From Anseongella ginsenosidimutans (GTDB lineage: Bacteria; Bacteroidota; Bacteroidia; Sphingobacteriales; Sphingobacteriaceae), in the NCBI RefSeq assembly GCF_008033235.1, contig NZ_CP042432.1, positions 1,054,001 through 1,118,000 of the forward strand: a stretch of 64,000 nt of DNA, written 5' to 3'. The translations under genes and the position numbers were made by a program. A model generated the notes under the pieces. It was given only the letters and a program-made list of their open reading frames with translations, did not search any database and was not told the origin of the DNA. Positions 7,733-37,173 of the stretch are shown here, piece by piece. The first letter of the stretch is position 1, and each line of letters opens with the position of its first letter.

Positions 7733-8800
7733 TTAACTTTTTGGTTCCGGGGGCGGCGGCGCGTCCGCCACGCAACGGAAACCCAGGTTATTGGAGGCGC
7801 TGCTGACCTCCCCTTTCCCTCTGCTGCGGGGTTTATAGCGGATGCAATACTGGTCGCTGCAAAGGAAGGAGCCGCCCCGCTGCACTCTTTTTACGGCATT
7901 CGGTTCAGCCGGGTCATAGCTGTCGGCCGGGCCTTTGGGATTATCCGAAGGGCTGTTCCGGTAATAATCCGGCCGGTAAAAATCATTACACCATTCCCAT
8001 ACATTCCCTTCCATATCGTATAGTCCATAAGGATTGGGAGGAAAAGATTTTACGGGAGCGACGCCCGTGAAACCGTCTTCAGATGTGTTCCCTTCTGGGA
8101 AATTTCCCTGGAAAATATTAGCTGCCCATTCCCCGCCCGGCTTTAGTTCATCGCCCCAGTAGTAGGTATGGCCGGGATTTCCGCCCAGGGCCGCATATTC
8201 CCATTCTGCTTCCGTTGGAAGCCTTTTTCCTGCCCATTTGGCATAGGCCAGGGCGTCTTCATAACATACTTGCACCACCGGCGCACCGGGATCTAATTCT
8301 CCGGACTGCTGCGGGCCAAAAGGCTGTTTCCAACTGGCTCCGGGCACATATCTCCACCATTGCAGGGGATTGTCAAGGGAAACCCGGTGATCCGGTGGTG
8401 AAAACACAGCCGATCCCGGTACCAGCATTTCCGGAGCGACGCCGGGAAAATCCGCCGGATCAAGTGCTCTTTCGGCCACGGTAACATATCCGGTAGCTTC
8501 TACAAATTCCGCGTATTGTGCATTCGTTACTTCATGCGCGTCCATCCAAAACCCGTTTACCGTTACAGGATGAACAGGGCTCGCATCCGGAAATTCCGGA
8601 TTATTGGTTCCCATCATAAATGATCCTTCCGGGATCCAGACCATTCCGGAGGTGTCGGGAGCTGCCGCTTGTTCCACCCTGCCATTTCCACCCTGCCCGT
8701 TCTGACCGGCAGCGTCGTTTTGCTTATCAGTGTCACTTTGCTTCGGAGAAGATGTGCAAGCTGCAAGCAGCAGCATAACCGGAAGTCCTTTATAAGTCAT
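7733..8800 (-). CDS. Formylglycine-generating enzyme family lipoprotein (SUMF1-like)
   Basis: 355-residue lipoprotein (signal peptide ending L-A-A-C, Cys15) with an FGE-sulfatase domain from about residue 50 to 345: M-V-W-I-P-E-G-S-F-x-M-G, then E-V-T-N-A-Q-Y, then G-N-V-W-E-W-C. Unlike many SUMF1-fold proteins it keeps both cysteines of true FGEs. G-G-S-F-L-C-x4-C-I-R-Y places Cys314 and Cys319 as the copper-binding, disulfide-forming pair, followed by S-S-A-S-N-N-L-G-F-R-C. It could therefore convert sulfatase Cys to formylglycine in the periplasm. No sulfatase is in the operon, but a type I sulfatase lies at 29399-31078. Lipid anchoring of an FGE is worth noting. Confidence 0.85.
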   Translation of the reverse strand: MTYKGLPVMLLLAACTSSPKQSDTDKQNDAAGQNGQGGNGRVEQAAAPDTSGMVWIPEGSFMMGTNNPEFPDASPVHPVTVNGFWMDAHEVTNAQYAEFVEATGYVTVAERALDPADFPGVAPEMLVPGSAVFSPPDHRVSLDNPLQWWRYVPGASWKQPFGPQQSGELDPGAPVVQVCYEDALAYAKWAGKRLPTEAEWEYAALGGNPGHTYYWGDELKPGGEWAANIFQGNFPEGNTSEDGFTGVAPVKSFPPNPYGLYDMEGNVWEWCNDFYRPDYYRNSPSDNPKGPADSYDPAEPNAVKRVQRGGSFLCSDQYCIRYKPRSRGKGEVSSASNNLGFRCVADAPPPPEPKS

Positions 8801-8801
8801 A

Positions 8802-8836
8802 CTACAAATGTAGCGTACGCCGCCGACTTTAAGAAA
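8802..8836 (-). promoter_or_regulatory. Promoter with BlaI-like palindrome at the FGE gene
   Basis: On the minus strand TTTC-N20-TACATTTG fits the Bacteroidota promoter form with one mismatch in the -33 box. The -7 box lies inside the palindrome CTACATTTGTAG (8802-8813), which abuts the start codon at 8800, so the transcript may be almost leaderless. The palindrome resembles the BlaI operator at 34869-34884. Confidence 0.4.
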
Positions 8837-33010: not shown

Positions 33011-34477
33011 CTAGAGCTTGCTGATCTTCGTCACAGTCGCCACAATGTCCTCTGCCAGCTTCCGTTGATTTTTCTCTGATGACAGAAAGGCCGCGTCCTG
33101 GTCATTAGAGATGAATCCCAGGTGCAGCATCACCGCGGGGCATACATTTTTCCGCAGTACCATAAAATTTGCTTTCCGTATAGTCGCAGGCATTTGCGAT
33201 AGCTTTAGATCTGAGGCGAACAGGCTGGAATAGTTTTCGGACAAATGGCTTTCCGTATTTTTTTCCGAGTAATAAACCTCCAGCCCCTTTGCTTCGGAAT
33301 TATTGTGGGAATTGACATGCAGCGAAAGGAACAGGTCTGCCTGGTGATCTTTTGCCACCTGAATACGCTCTTCCAAACTAGGTGCCTGGTCGTCCTGCCG
33401 CGTGTAGATAAATTTAATGGCGGGATCCTTATCTACGGCCTCAATGGCGTTGGCGATCTCCATTACCAGGTCCTTTTCCAGGAGGTCCTTTCCAACATTA
33501 TGTGCGCCGGCGTCACTGCCGCCGTGCCCGGGGTCTATTACCACGGTAAAAACGTTACTGCCAGGATCAGGGACGCTCATAGACGGAACGGCCTTAAACG
33601 AAACAACTACCAGCGTGGTCAATAAGGCGAAAACTGTAAGCGCCAGCTTGCGACCGAAACTGAAAACCGGGGATTTTGTACGATTCATCATGATGATTCT
33701 TTTTTTTATTAATATAAAATTAAAACCGCTCCCGGGCAGCGGATTGCACTGCCGCCGGGAACTAAGATCGATCAGTTTATAACAGTAGGAATCAACGCCG
33801 GACCGGCGGCTGGCGATGTGATCTGCACAATACTCATGGTTGGCGTGCAAAGCCTTCCGGTAACACCAAAGCAACGGGTTAAACCAGTAAAATATAAGCA
33901 AGCACTCGATAAATAAATTGTCCAGGGTATGGCCGTGGCTTACATGAATTTTTTCATGCAGGATAATATCCTCGTCAACTTGTCCATTCGTGTATGCTTC
34001 TTTGTTGACAATAACATACCGCCCGAAACAAAAGGGACTCACCGGCTGGTTCACAAGTGCAAGATGGACTCCGCTGTCAATATATTTTTCTGAGCGGCCA
34101 ATCAGCCTTTGAATGGCCAGCACATTTTTCAGGTAACGAAAAGCCATTACCAGTACACCGGTAGCATAGATGAAAAGGAGAACGAATAGAAAAAGTGAAC
34201 CCGGTACGCTTGTCGCATTAAGTTCTCCATTCGACGTCTTCGCAACCGTTCTCATCACCTGTATACCGCCTTCTATAAACTGACTGTGGCTGTCGTCAAA
34301 ATAATCGGGTTGAAAGAAGGCCGGCAGCGCCATGAATGGAACCACCAGTGAAAAGGCCATCGCCGCCAGCAGGAAAAACCGGTTAAACATAAAGCGTTTA
34401 TCCCTGGCGAAGAAAAGATCATAGCAAGCGTACAAAACCCCCAGGCTGATACTTGATTTAACGATGAAAGCGATCAT
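33011..34477 (-). CDS. BlaR1/M56 sensor protease fused to an amidase_3-like domain
   Basis: 488-residue inner-membrane protein. Residues 1-240 form an M56 (BlaR1-type) domain: membrane helices near 3-22, 33-52 and 92-113, then zinc motif H-E-K-I-H at 174-178 and the downstream N-H-E-Y-C-A-D segment. A last membrane helix at about 275-295 leads to an N-acetylmuramoyl-L-alanine amidase (Amidase_3-like) domain from about 308 to 488. Zinc ligands look intact: His318 (D-P-G-H-G-G), Glu334, His387 (S-L-H-V-N-S). The usual catalytic Glu of the L-V-E-x-G-F-L-S-N motif is His452 here, so activity is doubtful. By analogy with BlaR1 the amidase fold would be the external sensor. It overlaps blaI by 4 bp. 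Confidence 0.85.
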   Translation of the reverse strand: MIAFIVKSSISLGVLYACYDLFFARDKRFMFNRFFLLAAMAFSLVVPFMALPAFFQPDYFDDSHSQFIEGGIQVMRTVAKTSNGELNATSVPGSLFLFVLLFIYATGVLVMAFRYLKNVLAIQRLIGRSEKYIDSGVHLALVNQPVSPFCFGRYVIVNKEAYTNGQVDEDIILHEKIHVSHGHTLDNLFIECLLIFYWFNPLLWCYRKALHANHEYCADHIASRRSGVDSYCYKLIDLSSRRQCNPLPGSGFNFILIKKRIIMMNRTKSPVFSFGRKLALTVFALLTTLVVVSFKAVPSMSVPDPGSNVFTVVIDPGHGGSDAGAHNVGKDLLEKDLVMEIANAIEAVDKDPAIKFIYTRQDDQAPSLEERIQVAKDHQADLFLSLHVNSHNNSEAKGLEVYYSEKNTESHLSENYSSLFASDLKLSQMPATIRKANFMVLRKNVCPAVMLHLGFISNDQDAAFLSSEKNQRKLAEDIVATVTKISKL

Positions 34478-34848
34478 TGTTTTTTCTTTTCGATCCGATG
34501 TTCAATAAGGTCCTTCAGCTCCTCCAGCTCTTCTACCGAAAGGTCTGCCTTCGAGGCAAAGAAAGACGCGAACTGGGCCGTAGAATCGTCGAAGAAGTTT
34601 TTGATGAGCTGGTTTACATGGTCTTTGAAATATCCCGCCTTTTTTAGCTTCGGAAAGTATTCCCGTACTTTGCCATGCTGTGTAAAGCCTACATATCCCT
34701 TGCCGATCATTCGCGTAAGAATAGTGGCAATGGTCGTATATGCCGGCTTCGGATCCGGAAACGCTTCGACCAGATCTTTCATATACCCCTTTTCAAGCTT
34801 CCAGAGATGCTTCATGATCTGCTCTTCGGTTTTAGTGAGATTGCTCAT
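34474..34848 (-). CDS. blaI: BlaI/MecI-family transcriptional repressor
   Basis: 124-residue winged-helix repressor. L-T-K-T-E-E-Q-I-M-K-H-L-W-K-L-E-K-G and T-T-I-A-T-I-L-T-R-M-I-G-K-G-Y-V form the DNA-binding domain, and the C-terminal part is a dimerisation helix region. The family is inactivated by proteolysis triggered by the partner M56 protease, which is encoded next and overlaps by 4 bp (ATGA, 34474-34477). A near-perfect palindrome 20 bp upstream (34869-34884) is the likely autoregulatory operator. Confidence 0.9.
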   Translation of the reverse strand: MSNLTKTEEQIMKHLWKLEKGYMKDLVEAFPDPKPAYTTIATILTRMIGKGYVGFTQHGKVREYFPKLKKAGYFKDHVNQLIKNFFDDSTAQFASFFASKADLSVEELEELKDLIEHRIEKKKQ

Positions 34849-34868
34849 TACTATTCGAGTAGTTATTG

Positions 34869-34884
34869 TACTACGAATGTAGTA
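34869..34884. promoter_or_regulatory. BlaI operator
   Basis: Palindrome TACTACGAATGTAGTA with the TACTAC...GTAGTA half-sites typical of BlaI/MecI/CopY operators. A second half-site-like GTAGT lies at 34859-34863. The rest of the intergenic stretch to 35182 is AT-rich; I see nothing else in it. Confidence 0.7.
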
Positions 34885-35907: not shown

Positions 35908-37173
35908 TCACTTTTCCAATTTAACAGGATACATTTCCCTTATAAAGAAAACTCCGTCATATACTAAATTCCAGGGGATTTCTAGGAACCTATCGGGAAT
36001 ATAAAAGTGCATGGGTCCCTTCATCAGAAAGGGCGCTTCAAGATTATCCGAATTCAAATTGTAACTTTTAAAATCAATGAATCCATAATCGATGTTCTGT
36101 CCTATCCAATTCTCCAATGCATTTTCGTTGGCGGGTTCTACTGAAAATGGTTCTGTCCATAGCCTGCCTGCAGTACCGGAGCGGGAGGTGAATCCCAGTA
36201 TATAGGTCTTGTCTTCCAACGATAAATCTCCTGTAAAATCGGTACCCATATTTTTCCAGATTACTCCGCTAAGTCGCTTTTTAATCTTAAACTTATCGGT
36301 ATACTTCATGATGTGCGTATTTGCTGCCCAAACAATTACCTTCTCACCCTTGTATTTCTTACTTATTAAAAATTTGAGATTTTCAGACATGGCCTTATCC
36401 CTAACTTCATTTGAATTATTGTTGAAAGCTATAAGATTCCGGATAACTATCGGCCAATACGAACTGTCACCGATTTTGTGCTGTTCATTTTTTATTAATT
36501 CTAGCCCGTTGTCAAGTGTTTCGTGCAAATTACCGTTAAAATCACCTTTCCCCCGGGCTTTCGCTATCAGGGCTTCTAAAGCTATGAGAAAATTTTTATA
36601 CTCAGCAGCTGAAAATAATTCGGTAGCTAAGCCGGTTTGATTGAGATACTGATCCAGGTCATTTTTTAGATATTTATACGAATAATCCAGCACTAACTGC
36701 GGATCAAAACCTGATAATTGTATTGGCTTTTCAGTTCGAAAGGTTTCCGGGATATATTCTTCAAAAAGATATTGGCAAGCGTCACTACGTGTCCAAAGCG
36801 GGTAAATATTCTTTTTTATAAACTGGCGAACGGAATCCGGTTGTTTAAGGAGCTGATCCCAGCCTTTTGTAAGTCCATAAAAATCACTTTCAAACGCGAG
36901 AATATTAAATCCCTTTTTTTCATGAAGATATTTAATCAGCCGTGTTTTTGCCAGAAATGTTGGTGCGTCTCCATGATCTTGTTCACCCAGCATTACTATT
37001 TGAGCGTCGCCAATGGCGCCTCCTATGACTTCTAAATCTTCGTATTGATCAGGAATAGGAGAGACACTTTCAATTTCCACCGTGTTTTCAATAACATAAT
37101 TTTTAATATCCTGGCCATAGACATTGAAAGCAAGAAGGAAATAAAAAAGTAGAATTGATAAAACTCTTTTCAT
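35908..37173 (-). CDS. Erythromycin esterase-like exported protein
   Basis: 421-residue protein with an N-terminal signal peptide (F-L-L-A-F-N-V-Y-G-Q) and an erythromycin-esterase (PF05139-like) domain. V-M-L-G-E-Q-D-H-G-D-A-P-T-F and F-N-I-L-A-F-E-S-D carry the conserved catalytic-site pattern. Family members hydrolyse macrolide lactones, but many have other or unknown substrates; resistance should not be assumed, and export differs from the cytoplasmic Ere enzymes. Base composition is visibly more AT-rich than the surrounding core genes, suggesting transfer. It lies at the edge of the tRNA-Arg island. Confidence 0.85.
   Translation of the reverse strand: MKRVLSILLFYFLLAFNVYGQDIKNYVIENTVEIESVSPIPDQYEDLEVIGGAIGDAQIVMLGEQDHGDAPTFLAKTRLIKYLHEKKGFNILAFESDFYGLTKGWDQLLKQPDSVRQFIKKNIYPLWTRSDACQYLFEEYIPETFRTEKPIQLSGFDPQLVLDYSYKYLKNDLDQYLNQTGLATELFSAAEYKNFLIALEALIAKARGKGDFNGNLHETLDNGLELIKNEQHKIGDSSYWPIVIRNLIAFNNNSNEVRDKAMSENLKFLISKKYKGEKVIVWAANTHIMKYTDKFKIKKRLSGVIWKNMGTDFTGDLSLEDKTYILGFTSRSGTAGRLWTEPFSVEPANENALENWIGQNIDYGFIDFKSYNLNSDNLEAPFLMKGPMHFYIPDRFLEIPWNLVYDGVFFIREMYPVKLEK

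Follow-up and report, generated by a model that had tools for sequence, protein, structure and literature searches.

The window, that is, the whole 64,000-nucleotide stretch of the Anseongella ginsenosidimutans genome analyzed here (contig NZ_CP042432.1, positions 1,054,001 to 1,118,000), carries on its minus strand a BlaI-type repressor gene followed by a BlaR1-type sensor protease gene, the start of the latter overlapping the stop of the former by 4 bp (Table 1). The sensor gene is a single unbroken open reading frame encoding 488 amino acids, in which Pfam detects Peptidase_M56 (4e-13) and, at residues 312-483, Amidase_3 (1.3e-42), and no penicillin-binding domain. The place held in BlaR1 and MecR1 by the SxxK penicillin-binding sensor is thus occupied by Amidase_3 in both the Pfam and NCBIfam analyses, with the NCBIfam BlaR1/MecR1 models matching the M56 part only and falling far under their cut-off. 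The adjoining repressor belongs to the Penicillinase_R winged-helix family. A sequence-only reading had described this locus as a classical BlaI/BlaR pair whose sensor protease is fused in one gene to an amidase-like domain replacing the penicillin sensor, and this description holds on the evidence of the intact frame, the Pfam assignments and the same domain order in 49 other proteins; the possibility raised there that reads might reveal two separate genes did not materialize. An assembly or sequencing error as the origin of the fusion was ruled out by the genome forming one contig of 4.32 Mb and by the 49 other fusions.

Table 1. Features of the BlaI/M56-Amidase_3 locus (positions are those of the window; residue numbers refer to the encoded proteins)
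Feature	Coordinates	Strand	Basis
M56-Amidase_3 fusion gene (BlaR1-type sensor protease)	33011..34477	-	Open reading frame and Pfam
BlaR1-type membrane metalloprotease part, residues 1-297	33587..34477	-	PF05569; hydropathy, positive-inside rule; AlphaFold/BlaR1 8exs
TM2-TM3 periplasmic loop, residues 53-94	34196..34321	-	Hydropathy topology; place of BlaR1 EL1 loop
HEKIH protease motif, residues 174-178	33944..33958	-	HExxH..ExxxD kept in all fusions
E215xxxD219, third zinc ligand and Asp of gluzincin motif	33821..33835	-	Kept in all fusions
Putative autocleavage-loop equivalent, F252 and R260	33698..33724	-	Profile alignment to 8exp
Amidase_3 domain, residues 312-483, predicted periplasmic	33029..33544	-	PF01520 1.3e-42; PDB homologues down to 2.5e-26
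Zinc ligand H318	33524..33526	-	Alignment
Zinc ligand E334	33476..33478	-	Alignment
Zinc ligand H387	33317..33319	-	Alignment
H452, codon CAC, at catalytic Glu position	33122..33124	-	Alignment
BlaI-type repressor, 124 aa	34474..34848	-	PF03965 Penicillinase_R 1.1e-25; MecI 1okr 7.2e-07
BlaI F97, aligned with MecI Phe102 (P1' of repressor cleavage site)	34558..34560	-	Alignment
Predicted operator O1, TACTACGAATGTAGTA	34869..34884	.	Perfect TACTAC-N4-GTAGTA; conserved in six relatives
Predicted operator O2, TACTATTCGAGTAGTT	34849..34864	.	20 bp from O1, directly upstream of BlaI start codon

Hydropathy predicts four transmembrane (TM) helices in the protease half (residues 1-19, 34-52, 95-113 and 279-297), and the distribution of positive charges places residues 20-33 and 114-278 inside and residues 53-94 and 298-488 outside. 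The predicted topology is N-out/C-out with the amidase domain outside, a layout likewise reported for BlaR1 (PMC9834060). The gluzincin motif, defined as HExxH plus ExxxD on the cytosolic side (PMC9834060), is represented by H174-E175-H178, E215 and D219, which lie inside according to this topology; the HEKIH motif named by the sequence-only reading is confirmed. In resting BlaR1 the sensor is plugged by the EL1 loop (PMC9834060), and the TM2-TM3 loop of the window protein appears to be its equivalent. When the fusion profile is aligned with 8exp (10-324), F252 falls on the BlaR1 autocleavage residue Phe284 (P1') and R260 on the Arg293/Arg294 pair; R260 is invariant and F252 nearly invariant among the fusions, and this Phe followed by Arg suggests an autocleavage loop of the BlaR1 kind. 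AlphaFold, applied to the window protein and 26 related loci, gave pLDDT values of 88-97 over most of the M56 core and a poor amidase part (below 60 for most of residues 296-460). Residues 1-258 of the model superimpose on BlaR1 8exs with a Z score of 17.5 (229 residues, rmsd 3.9 Å), and the N-terminal part scores 14.8-17.5 against BlaR1 cryo-EM structures, the next best family reaching 6.2. By these criteria the protease half comprises a full BlaR1 core, and its model shows the BlaR1 membrane-protease fold.

The amidase domain keeps the His/Glu/His zinc-ligand set of Amidase_3 at exactly the residues that had been numbered from the sequence, together with the TR, SLHxN and GFxSN motifs. The catalytic Glu of xxExG(F/Y)xSN is missing: His452 sits on the E of xxExG(Y/F)xxN in the solved structures 4rn7, CwlV 1jwq, 5emi and LytH 7tj4, as the earlier reading had proposed, and the family alignment reveals no substitute Glu elsewhere. 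A miscall was considered as the source of His452 and rejected; since CAC is two base changes away from GAA or GAG, a single miscall is unlikely. In Clostridioides difficile CwlD the same Glu (Glu199) coordinates the zinc-bound water, and the E199A variant loses its function in spores yet keeps its zinc-dependent GerS complex, in contrast to zinc-ligand mutants (PMC8496864). By analogy, the window domain would be expected to retain its fold, its zinc and its capacity to bind, but not to cut, although a role for His452 as a base or as fourth zinc ligand is conceivable.

The check suggested by the earlier reading, a search for the same domain order in other genomes, recovered the 49 further proteins, giving, with that of the window, 50 distinct M56-Amidase_3 fusions in Bacteroidia. 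The searches drew on partly overlapping genome sets from the organism's own family (399), its order (400), its phylum (395), family f4 of the same class (397), and its class (325). In every checked fusion locus that has upstream DNA a BlaI gene adjoins on that side, some loci having one BlaI common to two tandem fusion genes, and the M56 catalytic residues are kept in all 50 proteins. Judged by domain alignment, BlaI score and operator, the closest relatives of the window protein are six f4 proteins (27-33% identity) and one from family f83. Neighboring genes are not conserved among the relatives, except for genes common to three f4 loci. In the M56 tree the fusions are scattered into 13 groups, some of them weakly supported, and the amidase tree requires just one change between the fused and standalone states. 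A scan of viral contigs yielded no relative of the amidase domain. No description of an M56/BlaR1 protein with an amidase sensor was found in the literature, a search that had subscription papers and preprints outside its scope and does not prove absence. The architecture is real and conserved, and constitutes a new form of BlaI/BlaR.

The active-site states of the 48 fusions that could be aligned are HEHE (38), HEHS (4), HEHD (3), HEHH (1, the window), HEQI (1) and HEQV (1); H318 and E334 are thus present in all 48 and H387 in 46. Two further fusions outside this alignment carry Glu, so that Glu is kept in 40 of the 50, including all seven close relatives, and replaced in ten by His, Ser, Asp, Ile or Val. 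In an IQ-TREE phylogeny of 80 amidase domains from which column 452 had been left out, at least five changes between Glu and its loss are needed; when Asp, which in three of the ten cases may retain some activity or work as a base, is not counted as a loss, seven of the 50 fusions in at least three separate events remain. As a control, all 32 standalone Bacteroidia Amidase_3 proteins, that of the organism's own genome included, keep all four residues. Because the fusion sample is non-independent and the events are few, Glu loss is treated as a tendency, with no p-value test. The alignment of position 452 therefore sustains the earlier claim for the window, where the Glu is lost, but not as a family trait. 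A family-wide role for His452 was rejected: it is unique among the 50, and with Glu in all seven close relatives it represents a local change. As 40 fusions, the seven closest among them, retain the full active site, most members may still be enzymes. The recurrent loss of Glu in fusions, against 0 of 32 standalone proteins, speaks for binding without cutting as one endpoint, but such loss is not the defining design of the family. Recurrent Glu loss with the protease and zinc ligands kept fits a domain selected for sensing.

Two sets of loci display other active-site variants. Tandem pairs behind one BlaI occur at L219:1398-5438 and L220:1603-5631; in each, the first M56-amidase keeps the four residues and the second is without H387 (Gln) and Glu (Ile or Val), forming, by active-site residues, a natural active/inactive pair. 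Loci L204-L210 (genus g16) make up a fusion clade with Ser or Asp for the catalytic Glu, in which the motif after the Glu position is also altered (GNMNT or DNINA versus GFxSN).

The Anseongella genome encodes six M56 proteins, the window's included, and one other Amidase_3 gene, whose active site is intact. The five other M56 proteins lie at L001, L003-L006 and L089-L095 (near 420 kb, 852-857 kb and 3190-3194 kb), and their tails, judged by eye from the sequence, are TonB-C-like repeats, plug-like, or coiled and charged. Given such unlike tails, swapping of the input domain seems to be usual for this group, the amidase fold being one option among others. M56/BlaI pairs are abundant in Bacteroidia, 385 of the 400 genomes of the order having a strong hit with the M56 fusion profile, and to our knowledge most of these pairs are without an assigned signal. 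The M56 proteins nearest to the window's M56 domain (L110, L112 and L126) carry SPEFKAxIxKIE-type repeats instead of an amidase, possibly as long coiled periplasmic tails.

The repressor side of the locus likewise resembles the Bla and Mec systems. The P1' Phe is near-invariant in BlaI (PMC9834060), and F97, ahead of a conserved DLS, marks the probable cleavage site in the window's BlaI. Predicted palindromic operators lie at the operon's own promoter. O1 is the sole perfect copy of its pattern in the genome, and TACTACATTTGTAGTA, or a version with one or two mismatches, precedes blaI in each of the six f4 relatives. A search for a regulon beyond the operon (up to two mismatches, seven genomes) found none, other sites being not clearly above the reversed-pattern control; the BlaI/sensor pair thus probably regulates itself, and only the blaI-sensor operon can be claimed as a target. 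A weak operator-like site with two mismatches, TACTACAAATGTAGCG, lies at 8800-8815, at the start codon of a minus-strand open reading frame (7733-8800) whose product resembles a lipoprotein of the formylglycine-generating-enzyme type; apart from the operon's own sites, no other in the genome comes within two mismatches, and the control yields about as many by chance. Near the BlaI gene and on the same strand, an erythromycin-esterase family protein is encoded at 35908-37173 (PF05139, 1.4e-16).

BlaR1/BlaI and MecR1/MecI of staphylococci and bacilli are like the window's pair in the M56 gluzincin motif HExxH..ExxxD, the four TM helices, the extracytoplasmic C-terminal sensor, the autocleavage Phe, the adjoining repressor with a P1' Phe, and the palindromic operators at their own promoter. 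The window's system differs in having Amidase_3 rather than a penicillin-binding domain as its sensor, in facing a Gram-negative periplasm, and in an operon without a beta-lactamase or PBP gene. Amidase_3 amidases (CwlV, LytH, CwlD and AmiC) are similar over the whole domain and have the three zinc ligands, SxHxN and G(F/Y)xSN in common with it, whereas the window domain has His for the catalytic Glu, is fused to a protease and, by predicted topology, is tethered to the inner membrane. Other Bacteroidota M56 proteins contain the same core, but with TonB-C-like, plug-like or coiled tails in place of an amidase. Fusions of M56 with M23 peptidase, mentioned solely as a domain arrangement, without a demonstrated function (PMC9662197), also combine M56 with a peptidoglycan-hydrolase domain, but of the M23 rather than the Amidase_3 type. 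Animal PGRPs comprise active amidases and non-catalytic receptors built on one common peptidoglycan-binding domain (PMC8124813). The non-catalytic PGRPs follow the same enzyme-turned-sensor logic, an analogy of logic only: their fold is unrelated (T7-lysozyme type) and they are without zinc, whereas the window domain keeps its zinc ligands.

With the protease core, both cleavage Phe residues, the operators and the zinc ligands in place, and the Glu replaced by His, the locus reads as a sensor pair of the BlaI/BlaR1 type. We give about an even chance to the full proposal that a periplasmic Amidase_3 fold serves as its input and senses wall fragments without cutting them. According to this proposal, uncrosslinked peptidoglycan or a muropeptide would dock on the zinc-containing groove and, in the way a beta-lactam acts on BlaR1, push the TM2-TM3 loop aside, whereupon TM4 would move. 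The cytoplasmic M56 site would then clear the autocleavage loop at F252, and BlaI would be cut at F97 and leave both operators, turning on the blaI-blaR operon and any further targets. In the absence of Glu the ligand would be held rather than hydrolyzed, giving a lasting signal, and relatives with the Glu may reset by hydrolyzing it.

A rather unlikely alternative is that the amidase is an output, that is, a LytH-like membrane-tethered wall amidase, with the M56 protease and the BlaI loop governing how much of it is present or released, and with His452 marking a recently inactivated copy or one with partial activity. Among the closest solved relatives is LytH, a membrane amidase in need of a transmembrane partner, ActH (PMC8496864), and the HEHE site in 40 of 50 fusions also speaks for such an arrangement, which may hold for the Glu-bearing members. 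However, the same Glu has been lost in several lineages with the protease site and zinc ligands kept, which would be odd if wall cutting were selected, and the other periplasmic tails on the genome's remaining M56 proteins are those expected of interchangeable inputs.

It is improbable that His452 takes over from Glu as general base, or alters the chemistry, so that the domain remains active on another substrate or at a shifted pH optimum: His is capable of acting as a base, the other active-site residues and the surrounding GFxSN are kept, and the domain shows no visible decay, but His occupies this position in no aligned Amidase_3 structure and in none of the 32 standalone relatives, and loss of the corresponding Glu abolishes CwlD function (PMC8496864). 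We consider it very unlikely that His452 locks the site as a fourth zinc ligand, the domain being a structural spacer or binding a protein partner instead of peptidoglycan, and the signal arising elsewhere, for example from the membrane state. Imidazole is a good zinc ligand and the CwlD Glu, by holding the zinc-bound water, places this residue close to the metal; Ser, Ile and Val in other fusions cannot act in this way, hence no common principle would emerge. Neutral decay, with a catalytic residue drifting in a domain that no longer matters, would agree with the long branch of the window's domain (1.32) but seems scarcely credible for a full-length reading frame that retains the zinc ligands, the TR/SLHxN/GFxSN motifs, the operator and the BlaI cleavage site. 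A wall-fragment sensor, of which the window's member would be a non-cutting version, is the most likely reading of these sequences. Most relatives keep the full active site, so an inactive enzyme acting as sensor is not how the family works in general.

Extended to the class, and held only tentatively, this reading would mean that Bacteroidia possess dispersed BlaR1-type receptors that read peptidoglycan by means of an amidase fold, several of which, the one described here included, may have become pure receptors through loss of the Glu, like the non-catalytic PGRPs, while catalytic members would be self-resetting. A predictable ligand (peptidoglycan stem peptides) and natural versions with active and inactive sites make wall sensing in these Gram-negative bacteria testable, and replacing a single residue could show whether the signal stops once the ligand is cut.
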